This document shows, piece by piece, positions 16,851-58,320 of a stretch of 64,000 nt of DNA. The notes beneath the pieces are model-generated. The model ran no database searches and was not told the DNA's origin. It saw nothing but the letters and a program-made list of their open reading frames with translations. Numbering within the stretch: the stretch's first letter is position 1; the number at the start of each line of letters is the position of its first letter. Source of the stretch: Nosocomiicoccus ampullae (GTDB lineage Bacteria; Bacillota; Bacilli; Staphylococcales; Salinicoccaceae); NCBI RefSeq assembly GCF_019357495.1, contig NZ_CP079110.1:124001-188000 (forward strand), written 5' to 3'. The translations under genes and the position numbers were made by a program.

Positions 16851-17205
16851 TATCGTAAGAGATAGTGCAGAAAGTTACTATCACTACTGATAATTGGCTC
16901 TTTATCGTAAGAGATAGTGTAGAAAGATACTATCACTACTGATAATTGTTTCTTTATCGTAAGAGATAGTGTAGAAAGATACTATCACTACTGATAATTG
17001 TTTCTTTATCGTAAGAGATAGTGTAGAAAGATACTATCACTACTGATAATTGTTTCTTTATCGTAAGAGATAGTGTAGAAAGATACTATCACTACTGATA
17101 ATTGGCTCTTTATCGTAAGAGATAGTGTAAAAGGATACTATGATTTATGATATCCGTCTTTTAATCGTAAGTAATAGTAGAAATATACACAATCGCTTAT
17201 CATAA
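16851..17205 (+). repeat. hairpin tandem-repeat array 1, seven 52-bp units
   Basis: Seven units start at 16851, 16902, 16954, 17006, 17058, 17110 and about 17162. Each is a 44-bp imperfect palindrome plus an 8-bp spacer (TTGTTTCT or TTGGCTCT). The left arm is TTATCGTAAGAGATAGTGTA, the right arm ACTATCACTACTGATAA. Base i pairs with base 45-i for most positions, around an AGAAAG loop. Units at 16902, 16954 and 17006 are identical and the unit at 17058 differs only in its spacer; the last two units are degenerate. Arrays 2 and 3 share the same unit length and related arms. Confidence 0.9.
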
Positions 17206-17353
17206 ATTGTATAATGACTATGTGTTTGTCTTATTTTATACGATAAAAAAACAGTTTGATCAAAATATTTTGCAAATATGTTATTGCTCTAGACGTATTC
17301 TATTATGAAGCGTAGAATTAGTATGTTAGTTAACTGGTATGGGAGATAGAACT

Positions 17354-18637
17354 ATGAATGATTTCTTTAAATTAAGTGCACGTGGTACGGATGTTAAAAC
17401 AGAGGTTATTGCTGGTTTTACAACGTTTTTAACGATGGCATATATCGTTATCGTAAACCCGGCGATTTTATCAGCAGCTGGAGTACCGTTTAACCAAGTA
17501 TTTATTGCGACGGTGATTTCAGCAGTAGTCGGAACGCTCATTATGGCGTTATGGGCAAATTATCCGATTGCGATCGCACCCGGGATGGGTATGAACGCAT
17601 ACTTTGTGTCCGTCGTGTTTTCAGAAGGTGTAACGTATCAAGCGGTGCTTGGTACAGTGTTTTTTGCTGGGGTAATCTTTTTACTCCTTACGTTTACATC
17701 ACTCCGTGAAACATTGATTCGCTCAATCCCAACACCTTTAAAGGTTGGGGTCGCAAGTGGTATCGGGTTATTTATCGCGTCGCTTGGACTAAAGATGTCC
17801 GGTATAATTGTACCTGACGAAGAGACGTTTGTAACGTTTGGTGATATTACGTCACCAGTGACTTTACTGACAGTGTTTGGTGTATTACTCTCACTGATAC
17901 TTGTCACTCGTGAAGTTAAAGGTGCGTTATTTATTGGGATGCTCGTTACAGCAGTGATTGGTTACGTCACTGGATTACTTTATATTGATAATGGGTTTGT
18001 ATCGACACCACCGTCACCTGTATTTTTTGATTTAGACTTAAGTAGTGTATTTAGTCAGTCGTTATACTCAGTCGTATTTGCATTTTTACTCGTCACGTTA
18101 TTTGATACGACAGGGACGATGATTGGAGTTGCTGAACAAGCAGGACTGATGAAAGACGGAGAACTACCAGGTGCTAAAAGAGCGTTGATGGCAGACGCGG
18201 TTGCAACTACTGTCGGTGCGACATTTGGTTCAACTCCTTCAAGTGCGTACGTTGAGTCGTCATCTGGAGTTCAGGTTGGTGGACGTACTGGACTCACGAC
18301 GCTCGTCGTTGCGGTGTTATTTATGTTAACACTTTTCTTCTCACCAATAATTGAATCAATTTCTGCATTATCTGCAATTACAGCACCTGCACTCATTATT
18401 GTTGGAAGTTTTATGATGTCAGGATTATCTAAAGTAAATTGGTCGCGTTTTGATGATGCATTTCCGACATTTATTATCATCTTATCAATGCCATTTACTT
18501 CAAGTATCGCAACGGGAATTGCACTAGGATTTATTACGTATCCGTTACTTAAACTCGTTGTAGGTAGAGGTAAAGAAGTTCATCCGTTAATATATGTATT
18601 TGCAGTATTATTTATCATCCAAATCGGATTCTTATAA
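17354..18637 (+). CDS. pbuG: NCS2/AzgA-type purine permease, PbuG-like
   Basis: A 427-residue permease with about 12-14 helices. Typical AzgA/PbuG signatures are visible: TEVIAGFTTFLTMAYIVIVN near 18, APGMGMNAYF near 76, LFDTTGTMIGVAEQAG near 255 and FGSTPSSAYVESSSGV near 292. It probably imports hypoxanthine/guanine or adenine. Start ATG 17354 is chosen because GGGAGA lies 7 nt upstream. No purine riboswitch or PurR box was found in the 150 nt before it. A decayed second copy of the 3-prime end of such a gene lies at 21580-21726. Confidence 0.88.
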   Translation: MNDFFKLSARGTDVKTEVIAGFTTFLTMAYIVIVNPAILSAAGVPFNQVFIATVISAVVGTLIMALWANYPIAIAPGMGMNAYFVSVVFSEGVTYQAVLGTVFFAGVIFLLLTFTSLRETLIRSIPTPLKVGVASGIGLFIASLGLKMSGIIVPDEETFVTFGDITSPVTLLTVFGVLLSLILVTREVKGALFIGMLVTAVIGYVTGLLYIDNGFVSTPPSPVFFDLDLSSVFSQSLYSVVFAFLLVTLFDTTGTMIGVAEQAGLMKDGELPGAKRALMADAVATTVGATFGSTPSSAYVESSSGVQVGGRTGLTTLVVAVLFMLTLFFSPIIESISALSAITAPALIIVGSFMMSGLSKVNWSRFDDAFPTFIIILSMPFTSSIATGIALGFITYPLLKLVVGRGKEVHPLIYVFAVLFIIQIGFL

Positions 18638-18724
18638 GGAAAGATGTTTTGACTCATACAGATATTGAATTGTCAGATGAGAAACGTGAAGGTAAGGAAT
18701 ACTATACAGAGAACGAATAAAATG

Positions 18725-18766
18725 AAAATACGGTAAATGATCTTTGAATCATTTACCGTATTTTTT
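18725..18766. terminator. bidirectional terminator
   Basis: Perfect arms AATACGGTAAATGAT and ATCATTTACCGTATT with a 6-nt loop and T-runs on both strands. It lies between the permease and the convergent lipoprotein gene. Confidence 0.9.
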
Positions 18767-18794
18767 ATTTACATAATCACATGCAATGTACCAA

Positions 18795-19877
18795 TCAATA
18801 CTCTGATGGTTTTACGATATTGCTGTAGTTTTGTAAGATGTCGTAAGGAACTTCAAGGATAGGTAAAACTTTTGCCTCATTAATAATTTTCTTAGATTCG
18901 TTGAGTGAGTAATTATCATCATCGAGCCATCTTAAATCGTGAAAATGTGAAGGCACTAAATAATACGTAAATGTACCATCTTTGTTATCGATAAAAGTCA
19001 CTTGTCCATCAGCGAGCACTTCACCAAGAATAACTGTCGTCCCTTCCGGTAGAGGCACAGTACTATCTTTATTATAAGGATTTAGTGGTTCATTACTCTT
19101 GTCACTATATGTGAGGTAAGGCGTTGTCGGTTCTATTGGAATCGAATCTATTGTTTCATCATTGTAATGATATGTCAGCCACGCTAGAGCGATGATATCT
19201 TCTTTTGAGTAATCTTCGTAAGTCATTTCATCAGCTAAAACGACTTTTTGTGATATCTTTTCTAAGTCATCATCGTAGTGTTTTTCAAATAAATCTTTAA
19301 TATTAAATACATACCCTATTTCTCTTAATTCTTCATAAGGCGCAGGATATTGTGATACTGTTATGACAATTTCATTTGTTTCTTCATCTATAATTATTAT
19401 GGATACTGCATTTATTTTTCGTTGAGATACTGCATAAATTTTTTGATTTTTAGTCAAGCCAGGGTGATCATGATAATCCACGGGATTTAATAGTAAACGG
19501 TCTATTTTATGAACTGAAGTAGTAGGTCCAACTCCAATATGTTCAAAAGAGCCAGATAACAAATCATCAGCAGTGATACTAACGTCGCTGATTGAATCTT
19601 CTTTAATAGCCATTGCAACGATGTCATTGACAGTTAAATTTTCATAAGACTGTTTCTCTTTAGACTTATCCTCAGTATCTTTTTTCATATCTGTTTTTTT
19701 ATTGTTCTCATTATCTTTGTTATCTTTATCGTCTTTATCTTTCTTTTCGTCTGCTATTTGTTTGTCTTGTTCTGAATTATCCTTTCGCTCAACGACAACA
19801 TCACCAGGCTTTTCTTCTGATTGGCTACAAGCAGAAAGAGTTAATGCCAGTAAACATAATATCAATCGAAATCTCAT
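18795..19877 (-). CDS. putative lipoprotein, unknown function (paralogue of 13479-14195)
   Basis: A 360-residue protein with a lipoprotein signal ending in LSAC, then a very charged D/K/N/E linker of about 55 residues and a domain that starts ENLTVNDIVAMAIKED, like ELTKEQIIAMTLFD in the other lipoprotein. A second, similar helix, YSKEDIIALAWLTY, occurs near residue 218, hinting at an internal domain repeat. The second ATG is preferred (AAGGAG 9 nt upstream; only 3 nt from the first ATG). It should be tethered outside the cell. No catalytic motif is visible. Confidence 0.7.
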   Translation of the reverse strand: MRFRLILCLLALTLSACSQSEEKPGDVVVERKDNSEQDKQIADEKKDKDDKDNKDNENNKKTDMKKDTEDKSKEKQSYENLTVNDIVAMAIKEDSISDVSITADDLLSGSFEHIGVGPTTSVHKIDRLLLNPVDYHDHPGLTKNQKIYAVSQRKINAVSIIIIDEETNEIVITVSQYPAPYEELREIGYVFNIKDLFEKHYDDDLEKISQKVVLADEMTYEDYSKEDIIALAWLTYHYNDETIDSIPIEPTTPYLTYSDKSNEPLNPYNKDSTVPLPEGTTVILGEVLADGQVTFIDNKDGTFTYYLVPSHFHDLRWLDDDNYSLNESKKIINEAKVLPILEVPYDILQNYSNIVKPSEY

Positions 19878-20023
19878 TAACATTTTCTCCTTAAATAAAT
19901 TGAATTAGAGTAATTATAGCAAAAACTATTAATATTACTAAATAAAAAATAATAAACACAGGAAGTTTTATATATATTTAGCATGAGCATATTAATAAAA
20001 CGAACTATGTAAGATAACTATTC

Positions 20024-21475
20024 CTAAAATGTGGAGAGACCTAGCCCTTCTTGAATTCTGTATAGGATTGTTTTCATAACACTATCTTCTGATTCTTCTT
20101 CATAATCGAGCGTGTAAATATCATCTTCGTTGTTCCAAAGTCTATTGTAGTATTCGTTCATAGCAATCATTTCTTCGCTGTTCGAATTTGACTTCACAAT
20201 AAGGTCTGTCTCTAGGTTTAAGTCTTTCAAGTTACGTCTTGTAAAGTTAGGTGAGCCTAAAATTAATGTGGATTCCTCACCATTGTTATGAAGCATAAAT
20301 TTTGCATGATACTGCTCGCCATGCGACTTATACCAACGAATTTCTGGAGGGTTTTTGTAGTTCATTAACTCGCTCGCTACCGGTTTGTTTGGAATACCGT
20401 TCTTCTCATTACCAAAAGCATCTTGGTTAATATCTAAAATCAGTTGCACCTTCACATCGCGATCTAACGCCTTCTTCAGTGCTTTTATAAATCCGCGATC
20501 TGAAAGATAAAACACACCGATTTTAAGAGAATCGCCCGCTTCAGATGTATTCACGGTATCAATTAGCGCTCCTCTAATCTTACTTTCAGTGACGAGAGAA
20601 ATTTCATACTCACCTGTATTATTATCAGTTTCAATTTCATACTTTTTAATTTTAGATGTATCATAGCCTGAGAAATCTAGAACAGCAATTTCACTTTTTA
20701 ATAGATCATTTAAAGTATCACCGGCAAACCTCACTGCAATATTTGAGTGTAAGCTAGAACCATCATGCGGATTTAGTGAAGTGATAACGCCTTCCTTTTC
20801 ACTCATGATTGTCTTGCGGTGATTGGCTTTGAAGTTTAAGAGTCTTAAATAACTCCCGATACCCACTTTGTCATCCATCGGACGAAGTGCGTTTGGTAAA
20901 ATTTTTAAACCGCCTGGTTTTATCCAAGTAAGATACGTCCTGTAATAGCCACTGTATAAATAGTTAGAATCTCTTAATTGAGACAGATTCGTTTCAATCA
21001 CATCAATTCCAGCGTCACGTAATTTTTTGTATACTTTCGTGTCATATGTACCATAAAAAGAGTTGATGGGATCCGTGATGACGGTAATTGGAATGTCAGA
21101 CTCTTCTTTCTTTTGTACTAAGCGATCTGCAAAATTATCAGACAACGTTGGAAACTCCAATGTGTCGTGATTATAGTCATTATTAAATAAAAACATATCT
21201 AAAACGATAAACTCCTCAGCATTATCAATCACTTCGTACATCGTATCAACGATTTCCTGGTCATGATGGACTGCTTTGTTTTTATCTTCATAAGTCACGT
21301 CATAGAGTATGTCTAAATCATCTGTTTTTCTAAAATCAGACTGAACAGAAATACCTTCAGGGAGCGGTTTGAATAGCGAATAGACTCCAACGAAAATAGG
21401 GATAATAATTAGAATCAGAACGATACCGATACTTAACTGAACAGTTCGACGCTTACGATAACTCTTTTTAGCCAT
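20024..21475 (-). CDS. membrane-anchored phospholipase D-family protein with altered HKD motifs
   Basis: A 483-residue protein with an N-terminal helix (about 13-33) and two PLD-like domains. The first motif is NHRKTIMSE (near 218), with Glu where the classic HxKx4D has Asp, followed by LNPHDGS. The second is YHAKFMLHN (near 393), with Asn in that position, followed by GSPNFTRRN. The family includes cardiolipin synthases and phosphodiesterases. Catalytic His and Lys are present in both halves, so activity is plausible. GAGGTG lies before the ATG. It is a single gene, divergent from the SDR gene. Confidence 0.8.
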   Translation of the reverse strand: MAKKSYRKRRTVQLSIGIVLILIIIPIFVGVYSLFKPLPEGISVQSDFRKTDDLDILYDVTYEDKNKAVHHDQEIVDTMYEVIDNAEEFIVLDMFLFNNDYNHDTLEFPTLSDNFADRLVQKKEESDIPITVITDPINSFYGTYDTKVYKKLRDAGIDVIETNLSQLRDSNYLYSGYYRTYLTWIKPGGLKILPNALRPMDDKVGIGSYLRLLNFKANHRKTIMSEKEGVITSLNPHDGSSLHSNIAVRFAGDTLNDLLKSEIAVLDFSGYDTSKIKKYEIETDNNTGEYEISLVTESKIRGALIDTVNTSEAGDSLKIGVFYLSDRGFIKALKKALDRDVKVQLILDINQDAFGNEKNGIPNKPVASELMNYKNPPEIRWYKSHGEQYHAKFMLHNNGEESTLILGSPNFTRRNLKDLNLETDLIVKSNSNSEEMIAMNEYYNRLWNNEDDIYTLDYEEESEDSVMKTILYRIQEGLGLSTF

Positions 21476-21579
21476 ATGAACACCTCACGATATCTATTTG
21501 ATTATTATTATACAGAAAACAAGTGTATTTACTATTGGAAAGGAGAAACAGATTTCTATCGAAATAATTGCAAACAGTA

Positions 21580-21726
21580 CCATTTACTTCAAGTATCAGA
21601 ACGGGAATTGCACTCGGATTTATTACGTATCCACTGTTAAAAATCTTTGCGGGTAGAAAAAATGAAGTTCATCCGTTAATATATGTGTTTGCGGTATTAT
21701 TTATCATCCAAATCGGATTCTTATAA
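21580..21726 (+). pseudogene. 3-prime remnant of a second PbuG-like purine permease
   Basis: These 147 bases translate in frame to 48 residues ending at TAA that match the last 48 residues of the PbuG-like protein (17354-18637) at 42 positions. It runs from PFTSSIRTGIALGF to LFIIQIGFL. Many differences are synonymous (for example CCG/CCA, GTA/GTG, GCA/GCG), so it looks like the stump of an old paralogue whose 5-prime part was deleted, not a fresh partial copy. Upstream of 21580 no permease sequence can be recognised. The SDR gene begins 11 nt after its stop. Confidence 0.85.
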
Positions 21727-21737
21727 GGAGAGGTACT

Positions 21738-22460
21738 ATGGAAGAGTTAAACAATAAAGTTGCACTAATTACAGGTGGTGGCCGCGGCATTGGTCGTGCG
21801 GTAGCATTAGAACTTGCGAAAAACGGTGTAAATGTTGGACTTGTTGCACGTTCAGTTGAAAACTTAGAAAAAGTACAAGATGAGTTAAAAGAGTATGATA
21901 TAAATGTAGCAATTGCGACAGGTGACGTTTCTGATTTAGATAGTATTACAAAAGCAGTTAACGATATTCAAGAAGAACTGGGTAACATTGATATTTTAAT
22001 CAATAACGCTGGTATTTCTAAATTCGGTAACTTCTTAGAATTAGATCCAGAAGAGTGGACAAATATTGTCGATGTAAACTTAAAAGGTGTGTACTACACA
22101 ACACGTGCAGTACTTGGTCAAATGATCGAAAGAGAAACTGGAGATATTATTAACATCTCTTCAACAGCTGGTCAAAAAGGTGGTCCAGTAACGAGTGCAT
22201 ATTCAGCAAGTAAAGCAGGTGTTATTGGTTTAAGTGAATCTCTAATGATGGAAGTTAGAAAGCATAACATCCGTGTGATGACATTCACACCAAGTACAGT
22301 TGCAACAGATATGTCAATCAATGACTTAAAAATTACTGATGGAGATAAAGACTCTGTTCTTCAGCCAGAAGATTTCGCTGAATTAATGATTGATGCATTG
22401 AAACTCAACCGAAGAGTTGTATTAAAAGAAGCGGGCATTTGGTCAAACAACCCGTCATAA
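21738..22460 (+). CDS. short-chain dehydrogenase/reductase, FabG-like
   Basis: A 240-residue classical SDR. The nucleotide-binding motif [16 protein letters not shown] is near 12-27, NNAGIS near 88, the catalytic Ser in ISSTAG near 139 and Tyr/Lys in YSASK near 152-156. It resembles 3-ketoacyl-ACP reductase homologues that stand outside the fab operon; the substrate is unknown. AAGGAGAGG precedes the ATG. It sits just behind the permease remnant and may use a promoter from before that remnant. A terminator follows. Confidence 0.88.
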
Positions 22461-22466
22461 TATTAA

Positions 22467-22495
22467 AATCCTGTCCGATTGGGCAGGATTTTTTA
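22467..22495 (+). terminator. Rho-independent terminator after the SDR gene
   Basis: Arms AATCCTGTCC and GGGCAGGATT with a 4-nt loop, then a T-run. Confidence 0.85.
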
Positions 22496-22546
22496 TAGTA
22501 AAAAACGGGTAAAAGAAATTAAAACTTACTAGAAAAGAGGCTCTAT

Positions 22547-23977
22547 ATGAAAATTGCAATTGTTGGCGCAGGTATGGCTGGTATAGGAACACTTCGCTAT
22601 TATATTGATCATATTAATATTGATGATATGGAGATTTACATATTCGATGATCGCAACTCTGCGGGAATCGGTTATCCTTTTGGTCCCGATGATGACGCAT
22701 TGTTATTAAACCAGCGACTTAAAAAAATGACGCTTGAACCATGGGATGACAAAAAAGAATACGTAAAATACTTAAAAGAAACAGAACCAGAACTATTAAA
22801 TCATGAATTCATTACTCGTCCAGAATTCGGTAAATATTCAAAAGATGTATTTTTAGAATACATAAAAGATGAACGGGTTAAATTTGTACCGTCTATCGTT
22901 AATGATATTGATGTAAAAAAGGATAAGTACGTTATTAAAACGGATAATGATTATGAAGTAGATGTTGTTCATTTATGCATCGGACAACTTCCTCAAACAG
23001 ATATTTATAATCTAAAAGATATTAAAAAATATATCGCAACACCATTCCCAATAGAAGATCACAGTGAATTATTATTAAATTCAAAATCTGTCGGTATAAT
23101 CGGAACAAATCTAACATCTCTCGATATTATTATGTACTTATACAAACATAACTATAAAAATGATATTATCGTTACTTCAAGAAGTGGTACAGTGCCATTT
23201 ATCCGCGGAAATGAGGCGGAAGTTAGTATTGATGTAAACGCGCTAAAAAATAAAAAAGACATCACAATTCACGATATTGTTGAGATCTTTAAAGAAGAAA
23301 CTAAGAGACAAGGTATTGATTTTAAATTTATAAAAAAGTTAAATGAGATGCCCGTCCTTGAGACGCTTAAATATCAACTGAATCATTTAGACACTTTAGG
23401 TGTATTAGAAGAAACCGCAGAAGAGTTATCAGAAGTACTTCGAGAAGTGTGGAATGATTTATCGTTAGAAGATAAAAAATATTACATGAAACATATTAAA
23501 GGTGTCCACGGACAATTGACAGGTCCATTTCCAAAAATGACAGCTGAAAAAATCGTAGAACTGATTGAAGCGGGTCAATTAACGTACGTATCAGGCGTCG
23601 AAGATATTTGCTACAATGATGAGTTTGTTATCCATTCAGAAGATGGTGATTATTCAGCATATGTCATGGTGAGTGCGGTTGGTCCGAACTTAAGCGGTAA
23701 AAATTTAGCTGATGAAAATAACGCGTCACCTCTAGTGAAAACACTGCTCGAAAAAGGTGTACTCGAAGTCGATGAGCTCGGCGGTATTAAGATCACTTAT
23801 CCAGAGTTTTCGGTAATATCTGAAGCAGGTGTGTTAGAAAGAATGAAACTGTATGGAAACTTAGTATCTACGACGCACATCAATAACTCTGGTGTGAACT
23901 TAATATTAAAGAAAATACCGCAGTCGATTGAAGAAATCTTTCATGGAGATGATGGGGAAGAAGGAACTTTATCCTAA
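22547..23977 (+). CDS. FAD/NAD(P)-binding protein (lysine N6-hydroxylase/CzcO-like fold)
   Basis: A 476-residue flavoprotein-like enzyme. The dinucleotide motif IAIVGAGMAGIGTLRYY opens the protein; a second GxGxxx-type motif SVGIIGTNLTSLDI occurs near 184. The segments NQRLKKMTLEPWDDKKEY and FPKMTAEKIVELIEAGQL fit the PF13454-type family of uncharacterised FAD/NAD(P)-binding proteins. Substrate unknown. The last codons and the stop (TTA TCC TAA at 23969-23977) are formed by the first bases of hairpin-repeat array 2, so the repeat overlaps the coding sequence. Confidence 0.8.
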   Translation: MKIAIVGAGMAGIGTLRYYIDHINIDDMEIYIFDDRNSAGIGYPFGPDDDALLLNQRLKKMTLEPWDDKKEYVKYLKETEPELLNHEFITRPEFGKYSKDVFLEYIKDERVKFVPSIVNDIDVKKDKYVIKTDNDYEVDVVHLCIGQLPQTDIYNLKDIKKYIATPFPIEDHSELLLNSKSVGIIGTNLTSLDIIMYLYKHNYKNDIIVTSRSGTVPFIRGNEAEVSIDVNALKNKKDITIHDIVEIFKEETKRQGIDFKFIKKLNEMPVLETLKYQLNHLDTLGVLEETAEELSEVLREVWNDLSLEDKKYYMKHIKGVHGQLTGPFPKMTAEKIVELIEAGQLTYVSGVEDICYNDEFVIHSEDGDYSAYVMVSAVGPNLSGKNLADENNASPLVKTLLEKGVLEVDELGGIKITYPEFSVISEAGVLERMKLYGNLVSTTHINNSGVNLILKKIPQSIEEIFHGDDGEEGTLS

Positions 23978-24220
23978 GAGATAGTGTAATAGGTGCCTAT
24001 CATTTGCGATAGTGGTTAGTTTATCTTAAGAGATAGTGTAATAAGTGCCTATCATTTGCGATAGTGGTTAGTTTATCTCAAGAGATAGTGTAATAAGTGC
24101 CTATCACTTGTGATAGCGGGTAGTTTATCCAAAGAGATAGTGTAAAAGGTGACTATTACTTGCGATAGCAGGAAATTTATCTTAAGAGATAGTGTAAAAG
24201 ATAACTATCGCTTGCGATAA
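23969..24220 (+). repeat. hairpin tandem-repeat array 2, five 52-bp units
   Basis: Five units start at 23969, 24021, 24073, 24125 and 24177, an exact 52-bp period. Each has a left arm close to TTATCTTAAGAGATAGTGTA and a right arm close to CTATCATTTGCGATAG, or ACTATCGCTTGCGATAA in the last copy, with 8-bp spacers such as TGGTTAGT. The arms differ from array 1, but pairing of base i with base 45-i is largely kept, including G-T wobbles. The first unit supplies the stop codon of the upstream gene; the last ends about 75 nt before the TPP aptamer. Confidence 0.9.
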
Positions 24221-24267
24221 ACACGCGACCCCCCACAAAAATTCCTAATTAATGGCAAACTGTATGT

Positions 24268-24424
24268 TATACTAAAGAAAATATAATAGACGATTCGGGG
24301 TGCTACATTTGTGGCTGAGATTATACCCATTGAACCTGTTCAGGTAATGCTGGCGTAGGTAATAATTGTTTAGGGATTCTTTGAGCACTCCGAAATTATG
24401 TAAATAATTAAGGAGTGCTTTTTT
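24268..24424 (+). promoter_or_regulatory. TPP riboswitch (THI box) with terminator that holds the ribosome site
   Basis: An extended -10 (TGTTATACT, ending 24273) precedes a TPP aptamer at about 24294-24370. Visible elements are GGCTGAGA (24313-24320), TACCC, TGAACCTG and CAGGTAATGCTGGCG. It is followed by a hairpin with arms AGCACTCC (24384-24391) and GGAGTGCT (24412-24419) and six T (24419-24424). The AAGGAG Shine-Dalgarno of thiM is inside the 3-prime arm, and the TTG start at 24423 uses the last bases of the T-run. TPP binding should thus block both transcription and ribosome access. Confidence 0.93.
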
Positions 24425-25229
24425 GTTGGAATTTAAGCAAGGTTTTCCGCTTCAAGATAGTCCATTAGTCGACTGCTTAACAAATAATGTCACGATCGAA
24501 ACGATGGCAAATAGTTTACTTTATGTTGGGGCAAAGCCAATTATGGCAGCACATACAGATGAGCAAGATGACGTCATTAAAGTAGTAGATGCAGTTCTTT
24601 TAAACTTAGGACGTATACTGCAAGGTGAGAATGATAATCTTCAAAGTGCAAGTAAACTTGCAAAAAAATATGGTAAGCCATTTATTGTAGATTTGGTTGG
24701 TTACGGTATTGGAGAATTTAGAAATAATGTTGGTGAAGAAATTATAGACAATCATCCTTCAATTATTAAAGGAAACATGTCTGAGATTCGAGCATTTTGT
24801 AAATTAAAAAGTCATGGGCGCGGTGTAGACGTTGGTGACGAGGATACAACGAATACAAGTTTAGATGAATTAATTGACGCATTAAAAAAACAAGTTGAAA
24901 CGTATAAGAACACTGTGTTTATGGTAACAGGACCAGTAGATGTTATCGTTAGTAAAAATCAGGCAGTAAAATTATATAACGGTGTAGAAAATAATGGTAA
25001 TTTTACTGGAACAGGTGATGTAGTCGGTGCGCTTGCTGGAGCATTAATTGGAGACGGAATGGATCCACTTAATGCGTGTATTAACGCAGTAAGTTACTTT
25101 AACATTTGTGGTGAAATTGCTGAGGATAAAAGTCACGGACTAAATGATTTTAGATTTCATTTATTAAATGAATTATCACTGTTAAAAGATACAGATTGGA
25201 CAAAAGAAGTAAAAGGAGAATACGTATGA
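24423..25229 (+). CDS. thiM: hydroxyethylthiazole kinase
   Basis: A 268-residue ribokinase-fold enzyme that phosphorylates 4-methyl-5-hydroxyethylthiazole in thiamine salvage. Seen are PLVDCLTNNVTIETMANSLL near 14-33, the GAKPIMA motif, LVGYGIGEFRNN (near 92) and the ATP-site GTGDVVGALAGAL near 198. The start is TTG 24423 (or TTG 24426), 7 nt after AAGGAG. It opens a thiM-thiE-thiD operon controlled by the TPP riboswitch. The usual Staphylococcus partner tenA is not at this locus. Confidence 0.93.
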   Translation: MLEFKQGFPLQDSPLVDCLTNNVTIETMANSLLYVGAKPIMAAHTDEQDDVIKVVDAVLLNLGRILQGENDNLQSASKLAKKYGKPFIVDLVGYGIGEFRNNVGEEIIDNHPSIIKGNMSEIRAFCKLKSHGRGVDVGDEDTTNTSLDELIDALKKQVETYKNTVFMVTGPVDVIVSKNQAVKLYNGVENNGNFTGTGDVVGALAGALIGDGMDPLNACINAVSYFNICGEIAEDKSHGLNDFRFHLLNELSLLKDTDWTKEVKGEYV

Positions 25230-48511: not shown

Positions 48512-48526
48512 ATAATGGAACGGAAA

Positions 48527-48549: not shown

Positions 48550-48575
48550 GAGTGTTATCACTCATCAGTACATTG

Positions 48576-48593
48576 AAAACCAAATAGAAGCAA
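48576..48593 (+). other. pre-23S processing stem, 5-prime strand
   Basis: AAAACCAAATAGAAGCAA is the perfect complement of TTGCTTCTATTTGGTTTT at 51589-51606, enclosing the 23S gene. The 16S-23S spacer of about 190 nt holds no tRNA. Confidence 0.8.
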
Positions 48594-48694
48594 AGATTAT
48601 ATATAAAAATATGATTTCAAGCGTAGAAACCGAGAACGACAAGTTCAAAATACACGCGCGATAGAGTAGAGATACTCTCTCACAAATTCATTAC

Positions 48695-51563
<2,869 letters not shown>

Positions 51564-51588
51564 ATATGATAAAGCGTGTATCTACGAA

Positions 51589-51606
51589 TTGCTTCTATTT
51601 GGTTTT
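51589..51606 (+). other. pre-23S processing stem, 3-prime strand
   Basis: Perfect complement of 48576-48593. Confidence 0.8.
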
Positions 51607-51615
51607 GAGTGTATT

Positions 51616-51730
51616 GTCTAGTGACGATAGCGGAGAGGCCACACCTGTTCCCATGCCGAACACAGTAGTTAAGCTCTCCAGCGCCGATGGTAGTTCGGTT
51701 TGCCCGTGCTAGAGTAGGACGTCGCTAGGC
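51616..51730 (+). rRNA. rrf: 5S ribosomal RNA
   Basis: About 115 nt with GTGACGATAGCGGAGAGGCC near the start, CCATGCCGAACACAG in the middle and GTAGGACGTCGC near the end. The terminal TCTAG and CTAGG regions can pair. Ends are approximate. Confidence 0.92.
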
Positions 51731-51747
51731 TTACATTTTAATATTAT

Positions 51748-51819
51748 TCCGCAGTAGCTCAGTGGTAGAGCTATCGGCTGTTAACCGATCGGTCGTAAGT
51801 TCGAATCTTACCTGCGGAG
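51748..51819 (+). tRNA. tRNA-Asn (GTT)
   Basis: Cloverleaf with acceptor TCCGCAG/CTGCGGA, anticodon loop CTGTTAA and T-loop TTCGAAT. First of six tRNAs after 5S. Confidence 0.95.
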
Positions 51820-51826
51820 CTTTTAT

Positions 51827-51898
51827 GGCCCCTTGGTCAAGCGGTTAAGACACCGCCCTTTCACGGCGGTAACACGGGTTCGAGTCCCGTAGGGGTCA
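51827..51898 (+). tRNA. tRNA-Glu (TTC)
   Basis: Acceptor starts GGCCCCT and closes AGGGGTC, anticodon loop CTTTCAC, T-loop TTCGAGT. No CCA is encoded. Confidence 0.95.
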
Positions 51899-51921
51899 CT
51901 TTTTTATACAATAAAATCTTC

Positions 51922-51994
51922 GGAGAATTAGCTCAGCTGGGAGAGCACCTGCCTTACAAGCAGGGGGTCGGTGGTTCGAGCCCGCCATTCTCCA
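51922..51994 (+). tRNA. tRNA-Val (TAC)
   Basis: Acceptor GGAGAAT/ATTCTCC, anticodon loop CTTACAA, T-loop TTCGAGC. Confidence 0.95.
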
Positions 51995-52003
51995 TTTTTT
52001 TAT

Positions 52004-52084
52004 GGAAGGGTAGCGAAGTGGCTAAACGCGGCGGACTGTAAATCCGCTCCTTCGGGTTCGGCAGTTCGAATCTGCCCCCTTCCA
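52004..52084 (+). tRNA. tRNA-Tyr (GTA)
   Basis: Acceptor GGAAGGG/CCCTTCC, anticodon loop CTGTAAA and a long variable arm (CTCCTTCGGGTTCG), as expected for tRNA-Tyr. Confidence 0.95.
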
Positions 52085-52094
52085 CCATTAATAT

Positions 52095-52166
52095 TGGCCT
52101 GTAGCCAAGCGGTAAGGCAACGGATTTTGGCTCCGTCATGCAAAGGTTCGAATCCTTTCAGGCCAG
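52095..52166 (+). tRNA. tRNA-Gln (TTG)
   Basis: Acceptor TGGCCTG/CAGGCCA, anticodon loop TTTTGGC, T-loop TTCGAAT. Confidence 0.95.
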
Positions 52167-52169
52167 TAT

Positions 52170-52242
52170 GAGCCGTTAGCTCAGTCGGTAGAGCATCTGA
52201 CTTTTAATCAGAGGGTCACAGGTTCGATTCCTGTACGGCTCA
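52170..52242 (+). tRNA. tRNA-Lys (TTT)
   Basis: Acceptor GAGCCGT/ACGGCTC, anticodon loop CTTTTAA, T-loop TTCGATT. Last tRNA of the operon. Confidence 0.95.
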
Positions 52243-52247
52243 CTATT

Positions 52248-52275
52248 AGCACTAGCAAAAGCTAGTGCTTTTTTT
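52248..52275 (+). terminator. terminator of the rRNA-tRNA operon
   Basis: Perfect arms AGCACTAGC and GCTAGTGCT with an AAAA loop and seven T, 5 nt after tRNA-Lys. Confidence 0.92.
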
Positions 52276-52323
52276 ATTGTTTTTATTAATTATTTATTCA
52301 TGAAAACGGGTTTATTTACATAT

Positions 52324-52362
52324 TGTAAACGCTATCTTAGTAATATACACTGAATGTATAAT
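52324..52362 (+). promoter_or_regulatory. cre site and promoter region of arginase
   Basis: TGTAAACGCTATCT at 52324-52337 fits the cre consensus TGWAARCGYTWWCW fully. A -10 TATAAT lies at 52357-52362, 22 nt before the start codon; no good -35 is seen, as with activator-dependent promoters. Catabolite control of arginase by CcpA is known in staphylococci. Confidence 0.65.
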
Positions 52363-52383
52363 AATTTTTAAGGAGTGTTATAC

Positions 52384-53292
52384 ATGGGGTTAGAGATTGA
52401 TCTAATTGGGGCAACAACTGCCTTTGGTCAAGGCAAGCCAGGAGTGTCATTTGGACCAGACGCATTAAGAATGGCTGGAATTGTTGGAATGTTATCTAAA
52501 AATGGACATAATGTTTTAGATAAAGGAAATGTATCTGGTAAGTATGCCCATAATTTCGAAAAAAATGATGTTTCAATAACTGATGATTTAAAGAACTTAG
52601 AAGAAGTTCTTGATTATTCTGAGAAACTTGCTAAATTAACTTCAAATTCTATAGAAAACAATCATTTCCCACTAACAATTGGTGGTGATCATTCGTTAGC
52701 CCTTGGTAGTTTATCTGGTATTGCGCCACATTATAAAGATTTAGGTGTCATTTGGTTAGATGCGCATGGTGATTTAAATACAGCTGAAACTTCACCGAGT
52801 GGTAATATTCATGGTATGATCTTAGCGCAGTTACTCGGTATCGGAAATGACAAGTTAACGTCAATTAACGGCTATCAAACTAAACTAAAAGCTGAAAACA
52901 TTGTTTTAATAGGTGTAAGAGACTTAGACGATGGTGAAAAAGAGTTAATTAAAGAAAAAAATATTTTAACATTCTCTATGAGTGATGTTAGAGAACTTGG
53001 CTTAAACGAAGTGCTTAGAAGGACGCTAAAGCATCTAGAGCATACAGATGGGCTTCATTTATCATTTGACGTAGATTCAATCGATCCAATGGAAGTAAAA
53101 GGGACAGGGACAAAGGTACCTGGAGGATTATTTACTTCTGAAGTGATTATGTTTATGGAAGAACTAAGTAAAAAAGATAAATTAACATCTATGGATTTAG
53201 TAGAAGTAAATCCATTACTCGATGATCAGAATAAGACAGCAGAAACAGCAGTATGGATAACTGAATACTTATTTGGTAAACGAACAAGATAA
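52384..53292 (+). CDS. rocF: arginase
   Basis: A 302-residue enzyme converting arginine to ornithine and urea. Mn-binding motifs are GGDHSLALGS (about 99-108), DAHGDLNTAE (about 123-132, the DxHxD) and SFDVDSIDP (about 223-231). The ATG at 52384 has AAGGAG 8 nt upstream. It is a single gene with terminator, lying between the tRNA cluster and the cdaA operon as in staphylococci. Confidence 0.92.
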   Translation: MGLEIDLIGATTAFGQGKPGVSFGPDALRMAGIVGMLSKNGHNVLDKGNVSGKYAHNFEKNDVSITDDLKNLEEVLDYSEKLAKLTSNSIENNHFPLTIGGDHSLALGSLSGIAPHYKDLGVIWLDAHGDLNTAETSPSGNIHGMILAQLLGIGNDKLTSINGYQTKLKAENIVLIGVRDLDDGEKELIKEKNILTFSMSDVRELGLNEVLRRTLKHLEHTDGLHLSFDVDSIDPMEVKGTGTKVPGGLFTSEVIMFMEELSKKDKLTSMDLVEVNPLLDDQNKTAETAVWITEYLFGKRTR

Positions 53293-53318
53293 ACTAGCGC
53301 AACTGTCGCTAGTTTTTT
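53292..53318 (+). terminator. Rho-independent terminator after rocF
   Basis: Arms AACTAGCG and CGCTAGTT with a 7-nt loop and six T. Confidence 0.85.
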
Positions 53319-53392
53319 AACGTCATTTAACTTTGTTGCATTTTGTTATAAAAAGGTTCATAATTTATAAGAGTAAAGTGAGAGGTGCAGCA

Positions 53393-54331
53393 ATGATAGG
53401 GAGAAGAATTAAAGAGTTAAGAAATAGTCAAAAACTTACTCAAAAAGAATTATCTGATGGCATCGTATCTAGAACGTACTTAAGTTTAATTGAAAAAGGA
53501 TCGGTACAGCCTTCAAATAATGTTTTAGTTAAACTGAGTAAACGTTTAGGTGTCAGCGTCAATGACCTAATGGTAGAAAGTCAAAACTATCAGTATAGTG
53601 ACATCGATATGAGCCGTGAGATAATTTTTTATGAGAATAAAGTAAAAAATAAAGAGTATGATGTTATTTCTGATTTTATAGAAGAACGGTTTGAAGAGAA
53701 AGAAGATATTCAAAAAATTGACCTAGCGAGAATTTATTTAATTTATAGTGAGTATTATATAAATACCTCACACTATAAAACAGGTAAAGATTATTTAACA
53801 CGTGCTGAAAATATTCTTCTAAAAATGCCGATTAATGATTATTATATTCGTTATACGATATTACTCAGCAATATTCACTTAAAAGATGATGATGTAGATA
53901 GTGCATTAGACGTATTAGAGCGAGCAAAAACTGAAATTTCATATACTAATCAGTTTCAGTTAGAGATGATTCAAATCTTATATTTAATGACAAAGGCATA
54001 TTTTAAAAAAGCGCAGTATTACACTGTGATTCGCCTTACTAATGAACTTGAAAAATTAAGTCGACAACTACAACTCGACTATAAAGTAAATAAAGTACGG
54101 TATATGAAGAGTATCAGCCTATATCATGAAAAGAAATTTGATACACTAGAGTTACTTACAGAAAATCATAACGAAATATACGATAAAGTATTATATACGT
54201 ATTGTTTAATCGTAAAAGGAGACGTGAAAAGTGCACGTCAAGTTTACGAAACAATCGAGCCGACACGTCGATATGAAGCGCTCAACGAGATTATTGATGA
54301 TTTAAATGAGCGTTTTAGTTCGATTATGTAG
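53393..54331 (+). CDS. XRE-family regulator with TPR-like domain
   Basis: A 312-residue protein. Residues 1-65 are an XRE helix-turn-helix (RRIKELRNSQKLTQKELSDG then SRTYLSLIEKG). The remainder is all-helical with TPR-like repeats (for example SEYYINTSHYKTGKDYLTRA and SNIHLKDDDVDSALDVLERA), the Rgg/PlcR/PrgX-type layout in which the repeats can bind a peptide. No partner peptide gene is obvious nearby. The ATG at 53393 follows GAGAGGTG; longer starts lack a ribosome site. The gene ends 16 nt before cdaA and may be co-transcribed with it. Confidence 0.8.
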   Translation: MIGRRIKELRNSQKLTQKELSDGIVSRTYLSLIEKGSVQPSNNVLVKLSKRLGVSVNDLMVESQNYQYSDIDMSREIIFYENKVKNKEYDVISDFIEERFEEKEDIQKIDLARIYLIYSEYYINTSHYKTGKDYLTRAENILLKMPINDYYIRYTILLSNIHLKDDDVDSALDVLERAKTEISYTNQFQLEMIQILYLMTKAYFKKAQYYTVIRLTNELEKLSRQLQLDYKVNKVRYMKSISLYHEKKFDTLELLTENHNEIYDKVLYTYCLIVKGDVKSARQVYETIEPTRRYEALNEIIDDLNERFSSIM

Positions 54332-54347
54332 AGAGGAACGAATCGAA

Positions 54348-55169
54348 ATGCTTCTAGGAAAATTGTTTGAAGAAACAACGACATTGCATTTAATCACGAG
54401 TATCGTGGATTTATTAATTGTATGGTTTGTATTCTATCAATTAATTAATGTGATTAAAGGAACAAAAGCGATACAGCTTATCAAAGGTATATTTTTCATA
54501 ATTATCGGTCGAGCAGTCAGTGATTTCTTGGATCTCACGACGACGACGCAAATTTTTGACTTAGTATTACAATGGGGATTCTTAGCAGTGATTGTAATAT
54601 TCCAACCCGAGTTACGACGCGCACTCGAACAACTTGGTAGAGGAAGAATATTTAAAAAGTCAGCAGTGAATAAAGAAGATGAATTACAAAAATATCGTGA
54701 AGAAATGATTACTGCGGTGAAATATATGGCTAAACGTAGAATCGGTGCCCTTATTGTATTTGAACGTGAAACGGGCTTAAAAGACTACATTGAAACAGGT
54801 ACGCCAATGCATGCAGATTTAACATCAGGATTACTTATTAACGTATTCGTGCCAAATACTCCACTTCACGATGGTGCGATGATTATCCAAGGAGATAAAA
54901 TAATTACAGCAGGAAGTTATTTGCCACTTTCAGAGAGTAATAAAATCAGCAAAGATCTTGGAACAAGACACCGAGCAGCTGTTGGTATTTCCGAAGTAAC
55001 AGATGCATTTACAGTTGTTATTTCAGAAGAAACGGGAGATATTTCTACGACAATTAATAGTAAACTAAATAAAAGTATCTCACTCGAAGATCTTGAAGAA
55101 GAACTAAAAGACTATTGGCAAATCACGAATAATAAAAAAGAAGGGGGTGGCCTATTTGCTAGAAAGTAA
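54348..55169 (+). CDS. cdaA: diadenylate cyclase CdaA
   Basis: A 273-residue membrane enzyme making c-di-AMP from two ATP. Three N-terminal helices (about 12-85) precede the DAC domain with the DGA motif (LHDGAMII near 172) and RHR motif (GTRHRAAVGIS near 204). The ATG at 54348 has GAGGAAC upstream. It is first in the conserved cdaA-cdaR-glmM operon, which ties c-di-AMP (potassium and wall homeostasis) to peptidoglycan precursor supply. Confidence 0.93.
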   Translation: MLLGKLFEETTTLHLITSIVDLLIVWFVFYQLINVIKGTKAIQLIKGIFFIIIGRAVSDFLDLTTTTQIFDLVLQWGFLAVIVIFQPELRRALEQLGRGRIFKKSAVNKEDELQKYREEMITAVKYMAKRRIGALIVFERETGLKDYIETGTPMHADLTSGLLINVFVPNTPLHDGAMIIQGDKIITAGSYLPLSESNKISKDLGTRHRAAVGISEVTDAFTVVISEETGDISTTINSKLNKSISLEDLEEELKDYWQITNNKKEGGGLFARK

Positions 55170-56094
55170 ACCAGGTATCCTCATCGTGTCACTATTACTT
55201 GCTTTATTTATGTTTGCGAGCGCAAATAAAATATTTGAAGATTTTAATCTGTTTGGAGAAAATTCTGGAAAAGATAATGTAACGATAGAAAACGTGCCAG
55301 TGAATGTTAAATATGACGAAGATAATTTATTCGTCAGTGGTGCACAAGAAAGTGTACAAGTGAATTTATCTGGCCCACCTTCAAAAATTAAACAACTACA
55401 AACGACACAAGATTTTACTGTAGAATTAGATTTAACAAATTATGAACTTGGTGAATATGAAGTAGATTATGATGTCAAAGGGTTACCAGAAAATGTTACT
55501 GCGACTCCGTTACCTAAAAAAACGACGGTTTCAATTCAAAATGTAGTGGAACAAACTTTTGAAGTACAAGCAGAAGTAAATGAAAGCCGGATGTCTTCAA
55601 AATATACAATCGATTCTATTCAGACAGATCCTAAAGTCGTCACTATACGCGGCGGAGAAGATGATATGGCACGTATACAATACGTACGTGCGATGATTTC
55701 AGGAACAGAAAAAATTACTGAATCCATTACGGAAAATACGGATGTTAGTGTCTTTGATGGACAATATAACAAGTTAGACGTTATTATAGAGCCTAGTAAA
55801 GTTGATGTGAGTATCAATGTTGAAGAAAATAAAAAAGAAGTCCCACTATACTTGAATACGATTGGTGAGTTGGAGTCAGATTATCAACTTGATGGTGCGA
55901 AGTTAAAAGAAGATACAATCACAATATACGGTGAACAAAGCGTACTTGACGAAATTAATGAAGTATACGCAGATTTAGATTTAAAAGATGTTGGGGAGTC
56001 TGGTAGTTTTAATACACAATTAAACTTACCGAATAATATATCTAAAACAGAACCAACAAATGTGAAAGCTGAAGTAAAAATTAGTAAAAAGTAG
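55156..56094 (+). CDS. cdaR: YbbR-domain regulator CdaR
   Basis: A 312-residue protein with one N-terminal helix (about 7-22) and extracellular YbbR repeats (for example VNLSGPPSKIKQLQTTQDF and IEPSKVDVSINVEE), about four in number. It binds CdaA in the membrane and modulates its activity. TTG 55156 is the likely start (AGGGGGTGG upstream, LESKPG matching known CdaR starts); GTG 55147 lies in the ribosome site. It overlaps the cdaA end by 14 nt. Confidence 0.88.
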   Translation: MLESKPGILIVSLLLALFMFASANKIFEDFNLFGENSGKDNVTIENVPVNVKYDEDNLFVSGAQESVQVNLSGPPSKIKQLQTTQDFTVELDLTNYELGEYEVDYDVKGLPENVTATPLPKKTTVSIQNVVEQTFEVQAEVNESRMSSKYTIDSIQTDPKVVTIRGGEDDMARIQYVRAMISGTEKITESITENTDVSVFDGQYNKLDVIIEPSKVDVSINVEENKKEVPLYLNTIGELESDYQLDGAKLKEDTITIYGEQSVLDEINEVYADLDLKDVGESGSFNTQLNLPNNISKTEPTNVKAEVKISKK

Positions 56095-56103
56095 GAGTTA
56101 ATT

Positions 56104-57450
56104 ATGGGAAAGTATTTTGGAACAGATGGCGTTAGAGGTATAGCAAACGACTTTTTAACACCAGAATTAGCATTTAAACTTGGACGTATCGGTGGATCGG
56201 TTTTATTAGATGAAATTAATGAAGAAAGACCACGCGTCTTAATCGGAAGAGATACACGTATCTCAGGTGAAATGTTAGAGTCGGCATTAATTGCAGGGTT
56301 ATTATCGATTGGTGCTGAAGTCATTCGACTCGGTGTGATTTCAACACCAGGTGTTGCATACCTTACAAAAGATATGGAAGCAGATTTAGGTGTAATGATT
56401 TCTGCGTCACATAACCCAGTTGAAGACAATGGTATTAAATTTTTCAAAAACGATGGTTTTAAATTAGACGATGAAACTGAAGAGAAAATCGAACGCCTAT
56501 TAGAGACAGATGAAACACTTCCACGCCCAACAGGTGTTGAGGTTGGATTCATTACAGACTTCTTTGAAGGCGGTCAAAAATATCTAAGCCATTTAAAATC
56601 AACGATTGACGGTGATTTACTTGACCAGCATATCGTTCTTGATGGTGCACACGGTGCGACATACTCACTTGCACCATACTTATTTGGTGATTTAGAGGCA
56701 GATGTTGTAACAATTGGATGTAATCCAGACGGTACAAACATTAACGATGGCTTCGGATCGACGCATCCAGAAAAGCTTCAAGAAAAAGTATTAGAAGTTG
56801 AAGCGGACTTTGGGTTAGCATTTGACGGTGATGGTGACCGTTTAATTGCGGTTGACGACAAAGGTGAAATCGTCGACGGTGATAGGATTATGTATATTCT
56901 TGCAAAAGACCTAAAAGAAAATGGTCTTTTAAATGAAGACATGGTTGTAAGTACAGTAATGAGTAACTTAGGATTCTACCAAGCGTTAGAAAAAATCGAT
57001 ATCAAAAGTGATAAAACAAAAGTCGGAGACCGCTACGTCGTTGAAGAAATGAAAGCACATAACTACAACCTAGGTGGAGAACAGTCTGGACATATTATTA
57101 TGTTAGATCACAACACAACTGGTGATGGATTACTTACAGGTATCCACTTAGCACATATCATTAAAAAGAGTGGTAAAAAATTAAGCGAGCTTCATAGCGA
57201 AATGAAAAAGTTCCCTCAAGAACTCGTGAATGTAAAAGTAGAAGATAAGTATCACGTCACAGATAACGAAAAAGTAAAGGAAATTATGGCTGAAGTTCAA
57301 GAAGAAATGGCAGGAAACGGTCGTATATTAGTGCGAGCTTCAGGAACAGAACCACTCGTTAGAGTAATGGTAGAAGCTGAAACAGAAGAGAAAGCAAAAG
57401 AATTCGCAACAAGAATTGCTGAAGTTGTTGAAAAAGAAATGGGATTATAA
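56104..57450 (+). CDS. glmM: phosphoglucosamine mutase
   Basis: A 448-residue alpha-D-phosphohexomutase converting glucosamine-6-phosphate to glucosamine-1-phosphate. Motifs are the N-terminal [13 protein letters not shown], the phosphoserine loop [11 protein letters not shown] with Ser near 101, the metal loop [11 protein letters not shown] near 241, GEQSGHII near 327 and the phosphate-binding [12 protein letters not shown] near 404. It lies 9 nt after cdaR behind TAGGAG and closes the operon. Confidence 0.95.
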
Positions 57451-57456
57451 TTTTTA

Positions 57457-57487
57457 GAGCACTATTTAAGAATAGTGCTCTTTTTTT
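57457..57487 (+). terminator. Rho-independent terminator after glmM
   Basis: Perfect arms GAGCACTATT and AATAGTGCTC with a 4-nt loop and seven T. Confidence 0.92.
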
Positions 57488-57562
57488 ATTTTTTAAAATA
57501 CTTGTTGAAAAATTGAAGAATTCTAGCATAGGTATGTGTAACACATATTTAGGAGGAATATT

Positions 57563-58042
57563 ATGAGATTAGTTTTATCACTATTACTAATGAGCTTCAT
57601 TTCTATAAGCATCACACCTGAAGCACATGCCTTAATGCTAGAAAAGAAAGCAAGCAAACCGTCAGCATTAGCACCGTCAGAATTAAAAACAGTTGAACCA
57701 AGTACAACTGCTGCAGAATTTGCGTTAAAACTTGCGGTTGGAAAAAGATATGTTTGGGGTGGTAACTCAGACACAGATGTCGATTGTTCATCATTTGCCC
57801 AACAATTTATGAGAGGATATAAAGGAATTGAAATCTCGAGAACTACATATGATCAAGTAAAAGAAGGTACTCAAGTAAATAATCCTGCACCAGGAGATTT
57901 AGTCTTCTTTAATGATTTTGCGCACGTTGGAGTATATGTTGGTGACGGGATGATGGTCGATGCTTTAAATCCTGAAGAAGGTGTCGGATTACGTGCAGTA
58001 TCTTATGTCCATGGTAAAGTCGATGGTTACTATAGGTACTAA
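57563..58042 (+). CDS. secreted NlpC/P60 cell-wall hydrolase
   Basis: A 159-residue protein with a signal peptide (cleavage after AHA near residue 23), a short Ser/Pro linker and an NlpC/P60 domain. The catalytic Cys is in DVDCSSFAQQFM near 74 and His in FAHVGVYVGDG near 124. It should cut stem-peptide bonds of peptidoglycan outside the cell. No SH3 or LysM wall-binding domain is present. AGGAGGAAT precedes the ATG. It is flanked by terminators on both sides, so it is monocistronic. Confidence 0.88.
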   Translation: MRLVLSLLLMSFISISITPEAHALMLEKKASKPSALAPSELKTVEPSTTAAEFALKLAVGKRYVWGGNSDTDVDCSSFAQQFMRGYKGIEISRTTYDQVKEGTQVNNPAPGDLVFFNDFAHVGVYVGDGMMVDALNPEEGVGLRAVSYVHGKVDGYYRY

Positions 58043-58050
58043 TTAATATA

Positions 58051-58081
58051 AGTGCATTTCTATAAGAAATGCACTTTTTTT
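58051..58081 (+). terminator. Rho-independent terminator after the NlpC/P60 gene
   Basis: Perfect arms AGTGCATTTCT and AGAAATGCACT with a 3-nt loop and seven T. Confidence 0.92.
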
Positions 58082-58120
58082 ATTTAAATTAATTTTCATT
58101 ATTGGATGGTAATTTATCGT

Positions 58121-58320
58121 TTATAAGAAATGATAGTGTAATACAACACTATGATTAGCGATAAAATGCTTATTATACTAAGAGATAGTGGCTAATTACA
58201 CTATTACTTACGATAAAACGTTATTTAACTTAAATGATAGTAGAAAAATACACTATCATTTCTGATAAATCATCTTTTATACAAAGTAATTGTGTAAAAT
58301 CACTCAATCTTTTCTGATAA
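58121..58320 (+). repeat. hairpin tandem-repeat array 3, four degenerate 52-bp units
   Basis: Units start at 58121, 58173, 58225 and 58277, again an exact 52-bp period. They are 44-bp imperfect palindromes with arms such as TTATACTAAGAGATAGTG and CACTATTACTTACGATAA and 8-bp spacers. Copies differ far more from each other than in array 1, and the fourth is badly decayed. The array lies between two convergent genes, after the terminator of the NlpC/P60 gene. Confidence 0.85.

Follow-up and report, generated by a model that had tools for sequence, protein, structure and literature searches.

Tandem 52-bp repeats of Nosocomiicoccus ampullae as probable DNA sites of a NERD-domain protein family found across the Bacilli

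Three separate arrays of a tandem 52-bp repeat lie within a 64,000-nucleotide stretch of the Nosocomiicoccus ampullae chromosome (the window, C1:124001-188000, on contig C1 of the 1.55 Mb genome G000), and they raise the question of what holds the length of a repeat constant while its sequence drifts. A first-pass annotation had described the unit as a 44-bp imperfect dyad plus an 8-bp spacer, looked to the genome and its relatives for further copies, and suspected selection on structure or a mechanism that copies whole units. The three arrays and the make-up of their unit were confirmed, with coordinates right to a base, and further copies do exist: a genome-wide search, with a profile then run over the regions retrieved, gave nine arrays with 54 units in total (Table 1), and there are also arrays in another genome of the genus (G002). 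The unit length is as strict as had been claimed. Neighbouring units are 52 bp apart in 43 of 45 pairs and 51 bp apart in the other two, despite adjacent units differing at a mean of 7.9 of 44 bases; about 46 length changes would be expected if indels and substitutions stood in the ratio seen in intergenic DNA nearby (16:123 over 1955 columns). The units were located by an ungapped profile, which is biased against indels, and an extra terminal unit of a9, too short by about 2 bp, was left unscored.

Two of the nine arrays, a6 and a7, flank a gene outside the window (C1:1101502-1102422) encoding a protein of about 307 amino acids with a NERD (nuclease-related) domain (Pfam NERD, PF08378, E 3.4e-15, 56.9 bits against a cut-off of 22.1). 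The window itself contains no NERD match, and its arrays a1, a2 and a3 are dispersed copies. The first-pass annotation had thought a protein partner worth seeking and one was found, but it is a NERD protein and not the RAYT-type transposase that had been proposed; the gene gave no match to a Y1 transposase, the whole genome not having been searched for Y1_Tnp. In the sister species (G001) a NERD gene with 53% identity likewise lies between arrays, and in G002 the NERD gene is split over two contigs with an array on each.

The Pfam NERD domain was matched by 36/36 aligned homologs (E<=0.01), while NCBIfam gave nothing over a cut-off for the NERD protein. The 71 array-linked NERD proteins all share E39, D72 and three cysteines; position 85 is E (64) or D (7), and K87 is K in 70. 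We take E39, D72, E85 (E or D) and K87 to be a putative motif of the PD-(D/E)XK nucleases, which cleave nucleic acids in a metal-dependent way. The cysteines, together with weak matches to PDB profiles (E 0.023 at best), suggest a zinc-ribbon-like element, and on our reading of the alignment the C-terminal part appears helix-turn-helix-like. As 21 aligned NERD proteins without an array retain E39, D72, E85, K87 and the cysteines about equally well, these residues do not distinguish array-linked from array-less proteins.

The association recurs well beyond the genus. NERD homologs were found in 32/33 genomes of the family of N. ampullae (E<=0.001), in 60/157 genomes of its order (E<=1e-15) and in 75/398 genomes sampled from its class (E<=1e-20), with 1 to 13 matches per matching genome in the order, fragments included. 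Many of the matches in the order hold at least one stop, which a natural gene end or a decayed paralog may explain. We scanned 140 NERD loci, chosen before their repeats were seen, with Tandem Repeats Finder (TRF): 70 loci from 30 genomes of the family (30 as listed and 40 further hand-picked matches), 30 loci in 15 chosen genomes belonging to two further families of that order, and 40 loci from other orders (20 strong and 20 weak matches). An array with a period of 38-66 bp lies within 400 bp 3' of the NERD gene at 51/70 loci in the family and 21/30 in the other families of the order, and in other orders at 19/20 strong and 5/20 weak loci. Arrays on the 5' side only were found at 2/70, 0/30, 1/20 and 6/20 loci respectively.

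The controls for this pairing were the distance profile and 144 kb of the N. ampullae genome (the window and 20 sampled stretches). In the profile (first 70 loci, period 35-60) arrays are present at 49/65 loci 0-200 bp 3' of the gene and at 43/64 at 200-400 bp, falling to 0/64 at 900-1200 bp and 1/64 at 1200-1500 bp; on the 5' side the figures are 0/69 at 0-200 bp and 8/68 at 200-400 bp. Over the 144 kb, TRF set to a period of 35-60 and 2 or more copies reported the places of a1, a2 and a3 and no others. Among array-linked NERD paralogs, each lies beside its own repeat. Among 53 consensus units a significant dyad is present in 24 at p<=0.05 and in 11 at p<=0.01. On our reading of the repeats listed, 16/20 loci of the more distant weak group (L283-L302) have direct repeats of 20-21 bp, or two turns, flanking the gene on one side or on both, and some of these repeats are organised into larger units of about 42, 82 or 103 bp.

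The periods of these arrays fall on a ladder. Taking the best-scoring array with a period of 18-75 bp within 600 bp of the NERD gene, present at 114/140 loci, we found periods of 21 (6 loci), 27 (2), 31 (1), 40-43 (55), 50-53 (44) and 61-63 bp (6), placing 111/114 in the 21, 40-43, 50-53 or 61-63 bp classes, with differing sequences. Some of the weak-group entries at 40-42 are doubled 20-21 bp units, and a few entries (e.g. 27) look like coding repeats. The classes correspond to about 2, 4, 5 or 6 helical turns, at 10.3-10.5 bp per turn for the main ones. A vector-strength scan was broad (0.86-0.89 across 9.9-11.0 bp) and had no null comparison, so the pitch is not fixed by these data. Mapped onto a tree of 92 NERD proteins (71 labelled rows from the first 100 loci), the period class changes 5 times, against a mean of 22.8 when shuffled, and 0/200 shuffles were as low, in a test that near-copies favour. 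In three genomes (G003, G011 and G018) arrays of 41/42 bp and of 51 bp occur together, and each type accompanies the NERD subfamily to which it corresponds. As the period follows both the NERD tree and the subfamily within genomes, the spacing is best explained as being set by the protein.

The repeats are also dispersed away from their genes, as tested in three genomes, and are oriented by replication arm. In G011 (2.19 Mb, one contig) a joint search with the repeats of 8/11 NERD matches gave further arrays of these types elsewhere, and the 20 dispersed places that we fetched contained no NERD match; G389, from another order (4.70 Mb), has three repeat types at 21 array loci, leaving out two + strand matches (4485816 and 4485864) that overlap a - strand array. 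Orientation agrees with the arm for 9/9 arrays in N. ampullae, 30/34 in G011 and 21/21 in G389. In N. ampullae, with the arms set by dnaA at C1:22 and by the turn of the GC skew between 820 and 873 kb, the right arm has 4/4 arrays on + and the left arm 5/5 on -, although a6 and a7 are neighbours and the nine are thus not fully independent. For the other two genomes the arms rest on fitted cut points and GC skew and not on a located origin gene. Of the 34 G011 arrays, which come from the matches listed among 173, two cut points fitted near 0.80 Mb and near 1.75 Mb place 30 correctly, and 1/1000 random strand sets did as well; the skew reverses near 0.88 Mb and again somewhere from 1.60 to 1.75 Mb, save for exceptions at 81 kb and 1844 kb. 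The disagreeing arrays are two of four in the 51-bp family, one at 161 kb and one at 492 kb. For G389 a pair of fitted cut points places 21/21 arrays (0/3000 random sets as good); there the skew is positive at 7/7 loci measured within one block, and two loci of the other block gave 0.013 and -0.052. On simple open reading frame calls, five arrays follow the arm while opposing both neighbouring genes (a6 in N. ampullae; 15, 892, 916 and 1844 kb in G011), which argues against transcription as the cause of the orientation.

From the association, the period ladder and its agreement with the protein phylogeny, the dispersal and the polarity we infer binding, cleavage and copying by the NERD protein. 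It is rather probable that the arrays are its cognate sites and that the two work, most likely, like the pair of repetitive extragenic palindromic (REP) sequences and REP-associated tyrosine transposases (RAYT), with the protein maintaining and seeding its repeats. Each array would line up sites that a single member of the NERD family reads in double-stranded DNA, a protein combining a nuclease domain of the PD-(D/E)XK type with zinc-ribbon-like cysteines and a C-terminal part resembling a helix-turn-helix. Because the sites are close to whole helical turns apart (five turns for the 52 bp here), the bound proteins would all lie along the same side of the helix. The nuclease would act at its own repeats to maintain and amplify them and would occasionally seed arrays in intergenic DNA, the bias in seeding coming from the direction of the replication fork. 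Elements that target the lagging-strand template are described in the available text of PMC6006769 and offer a model for such a bias. The broader proposal has slightly less than an even chance of being right: that this is an undescribed Bacilli-wide class, in which NERD proteins recognise tandem sites at whole-turn spacing, spread them directionally with replication and co-evolve with them, each paralog founding its own repeat family.

Several observations weigh against cognate sites maintained by the NERD protein. No copying event was observed, and seven array sites are common to N. ampullae and G002, from which it follows that any spread is slow. No array was found at 17/70 family loci (some of them cut by contig ends), 9/30 order loci and 9/20 weak loci, the strong group having 0/20 such loci; these array-less loci include the three other NERD paralogs that we fetched from N. 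ampullae. A dyad at p<=0.05 is missing from 29/53 consensus units. When orientation is counted from the NERD gene, arrays on the arm with positive skew read + in G011 and - in G389. The similarity of repeats hardly follows that of the C-terminal half of the protein (partial rank correlation 0.075 over 2485 pairs; 0.047 for the N-terminal half). For the 18 pairs with N-terminal identity of at least 75% the correlation is 0.65 for the C-terminal half and 0.40 for the N-terminal half. Single-sequence AlphaFold runs on two half genes of Candidatus N. stercorigallinarum were unusable (mean predicted local distance difference test score 38).

The polarity could also belong to a chromosome element that serves the host, with NERD protein on phased arrays acting as a directional roadblock or organiser (fork pausing, segregation, gene insulation) and using the nuclease fold for binding. 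Such an element would fit an orientation that tracks the replication arm in three genomes, even against both neighbouring genes, and the frequency of convergent gene pairs as hosts, which is 5/9 in N. ampullae (a3, a5, a7, a8, a9). It fits less well with repeats that differ between paralogs, with a number of matches per genome that varies as widely as here, with places that are empty in the sister species (a2, a3, a5 and a8), or with the retention of the catalytic residues, and we regard it as unlikely.

We think it quite improbable that the proteins are anti-phage nucleases, in which case each paralog would read a different sequence and be held or controlled by the chromosomal array, acting as its sink or self-marker. 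Genomes do contain many diverging paralogs, and PADLOC gave weak matches (E<=0.01) to two NERD-bearing defence proteins, MkoA for 27/36 members and PglW for 15/36. However, the MkoA match of the first member spans about 120 of 1607 positions, which is the NERD part only. The N. ampullae protein had no match in 72,556 plasmid and 50,697 phage records, a search that distant homologs could escape, and querying IMG/VR with it brought up no close relative.

There is very little probability that the arrays are passive satellite DNA, homogenised through slippage and gene conversion, and the NERD genes bystanders. Some arrays, such as a1, are locally homogeneous, and unit numbers range from 4 to 9, but bystander genes leave unexplained why 3' arrays occur at 72/100 NERD loci (45 genomes of the order), and the period ladder, the agreement of period with the protein tree and the polarity are left without a cause as well.

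The dyad itself bears on the remaining possibility, that the unit is an RNA element. Conservation is concentrated in the dyad arms (mean 1.26 bits per position, against 0.33 in the spacer; 50 units, those scoring <=40 being left out), and the A-A mismatch at 11/34 noted in the first-pass annotation does recur, with A11 in 44/50 units and A34 in 47/50. Over 17 pairs in 46 distinct units 77.9% of cells are paired in register, and since this drops to 30-49% when the columns are slid by 1-3, the dyad symmetry is real. Pairs that are often or mostly unpaired among these 46 units are 1/44 (in 24), 4/41 (22), 6/39 (36) and 7/38 (38). While the symmetry that had been noted stands, the claim that pairing is kept despite drift does not: with the 3' letters shuffled pairing is 79.1%, at least as high as observed in 500/500 shuffles, and two-sided changes are rarer than expected (6 against 13.0 cells). 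RNAalifold predicted no pairs for the units, Rfam gave no match at the arrays, where the annotation had likewise known of no described family, and no terminator-like site lies in window 16700-17400, around a1. The hairpin reading is rejected on these results, and selection on an RNA-type structure, which had been suggested, receives no support from an excess of compensatory changes or from a predicted fold. Tandem hairpins that protect or terminate transcripts would suit arrays lying mostly 3' of genes, but they are scarcely credible given these negatives, an orientation independent of the flanking genes in five cases and a whole-turn DNA spacing that has no reason in RNA. Because the N. ampullae pairing does not covary, double-stranded DNA rather than folded single strands is suggested, and the conserved half-site (approximately TTATCNNAAG.GATAGTGTA) has the look of a sequence recognised in duplex form.

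If the arrays are sites of the NERD protein, the closest parallel is the REP/REPIN-RAYT systems, or REPtrons. In the available text of PMC6006769 and PMC8266576 these have a nuclease gene flanked by its own type of repeat, a repeat family for each paralog, intergenic dispersal and imperfect palindromes. They differ from the present system in their protein, RAYT being an HUH-tyrosine (Y1) enzyme and the protein here NERD/PD-(D/E)XK-like, and in their repeats, since ours stand in tandem with periods that correspond to about 2, 4, 5 or 6 helical turns. The GTAG-type tetranucleotide at the foot of a REP hairpin has no conserved counterpart beside the dyad in the 50 units of the N. ampullae family. 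We read this as what may be a nuclease-repeat partnership organised like REP/RAYT and made of unrelated parts. The STAR elements of Staphylococcus aureus resemble our arrays in being intergenic, tandem and locus-specific, with a unit of about 50-58 bp and a variable copy number, according to the main text of PMC3532100, which does not mention "nuclease". Their core, T(G/A/T)TGTTG(G/T)GGCCC(C/A), is not enriched in the window (2 matches at <=2 mismatches, 1.44 expected) and none of its matches is in an array. SmdA, a staphylococcal NERD-like cell-division protein, has a NERD-type domain and 302 amino acids, but is membrane-anchored, lacks several of the most conserved NERD residues according to its authors, and is presented with no mention of repeats in the available text (PMC9040797); the same text states that, to the authors' knowledge, NERD function in bacteria had not been studied before. 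In non-CRISPR interspersed repeat array systems, too, proteins acting on nucleic acids adjoin repeat arrays, but the spacers are hypervariable and two of the systems are expressed as small RNAs, as far as the available text describes (PMC10910872). In the main text of that paper NERD appears in a figure legend only, among putative CRISPR auxiliary genes.

The pairing of a NERD gene with a repeat that is different each time recurs across the Bacilli and appears to be new, as no literature linking NERD genes to such repeats was found in searches whose coverage excluded most subscription journals and whose result lists were in several cases partial. CRISPR arrays have near-identical repeats, unique spacers of about 25-40 bp and cas genes; here the spacer measures 8 bp and the units differ among themselves, and we rejected this identity, cas genes not having been searched for. 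In type III (ToxIN-like) toxin-antitoxin systems tandem repeats upstream of a nuclease gene are made as an RNA antitoxin, and this was rejected from the distance profile, where the arrays lie mostly 3' of the gene. A phage origin was rejected as well: the single IMG/VR match to the pattern is a lone stretch within a reading frame, presumably portal-like, of a phage-like contig, and was taken as chance. A large NERD family tied to specific DNA sequences would offer experimenters many natural protein-site pairs, would give a class of Bacilli intergenic tandem repeats a likely owner, and suggests that repeats may spread with replication without a classical transposase.

Comparison within the genus shows how the arrays may change. 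At the positions orthologous to a2-a8, G002 carries arrays as well; its contig ends near a1, and the flanks of a9 were unmatched there. In the sister species neither the N. ampullae unit pattern (<=2 mismatches) nor the covariance model gave a match. By eye, there is no array at the places of a2, a3, a5 and a8 (a8 from the left flank onwards), none was seen at the place of a1, located by its right flank only, and at that of a9 a lone half unit (...CACTATCTCTTGCGATAA...) adjoins conserved flanking sequence. The places of a6 and a7 have arrays of other sequence, again with a period of 52 bp; the a7 array as a query found no match in 32 other genomes of the family. This fits a history in which the NERD protein of the sister species diverged, the adjoining arrays changed with it and, at the places inspected, the old-type arrays were lost save for the a9 remnant. 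A simpler history, in which most arrays arose after the two species split, fits as well, and only the a9 remnant argues for an earlier presence. At the a4 place of the sister species (C139; L125:31-932) there is a different tandem array, with a period of 266 bp, in which dyads of about 30 bp such as TTTGTTAA...TTAACAAA can be seen by eye.

Table 1. The nine 52-bp arrays of the N. ampullae genome
Array	Window position	C1 position	Strand	Units
a1	16850..17205	140850	+	7 units of 52 bp
a2	23969..24220	147969	+	5
a3	58121..58320	182121	+	4, diverged
a4		299557		9
a5		875550		7
a6		1101035		5
a7		1102443		9
a8		1221426		4
a9		1343331		4

A covariance-model search of the N. ampullae genome, with 150 of 1538 first-look candidates scored, gave no tenth array. 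Weak BLAST matches at 480658, 1397110 and 1101948 were left out, a profile scan of the first two regions having given no unit. Between a7 and the next conserved gene are two open reading frames that from their sequence look like an IS3-type transposase (C1 1102979-1104393; L034:3980-5394); G002 is without them at that place.

Within the window, a1 lies between a NUDIX gene upstream (+, end 16844) and a xanthine/uracil-type permease gene downstream (+, 17339-18637), and a3 between convergent NlpC/P60 (57563-58042, +) and UPF0176/rhodanese (58380-59420, -) genes. Downstream of a2 is a thiamine pyrophosphate riboswitch (24286-24380), followed by a hydroxyethylthiazole kinase gene. Upstream is an FAD/NAD-binding gene (22547-23977) whose stop codon is supplied by the first a2 unit, so that the array extends into the reading frame at window 23969-23977.

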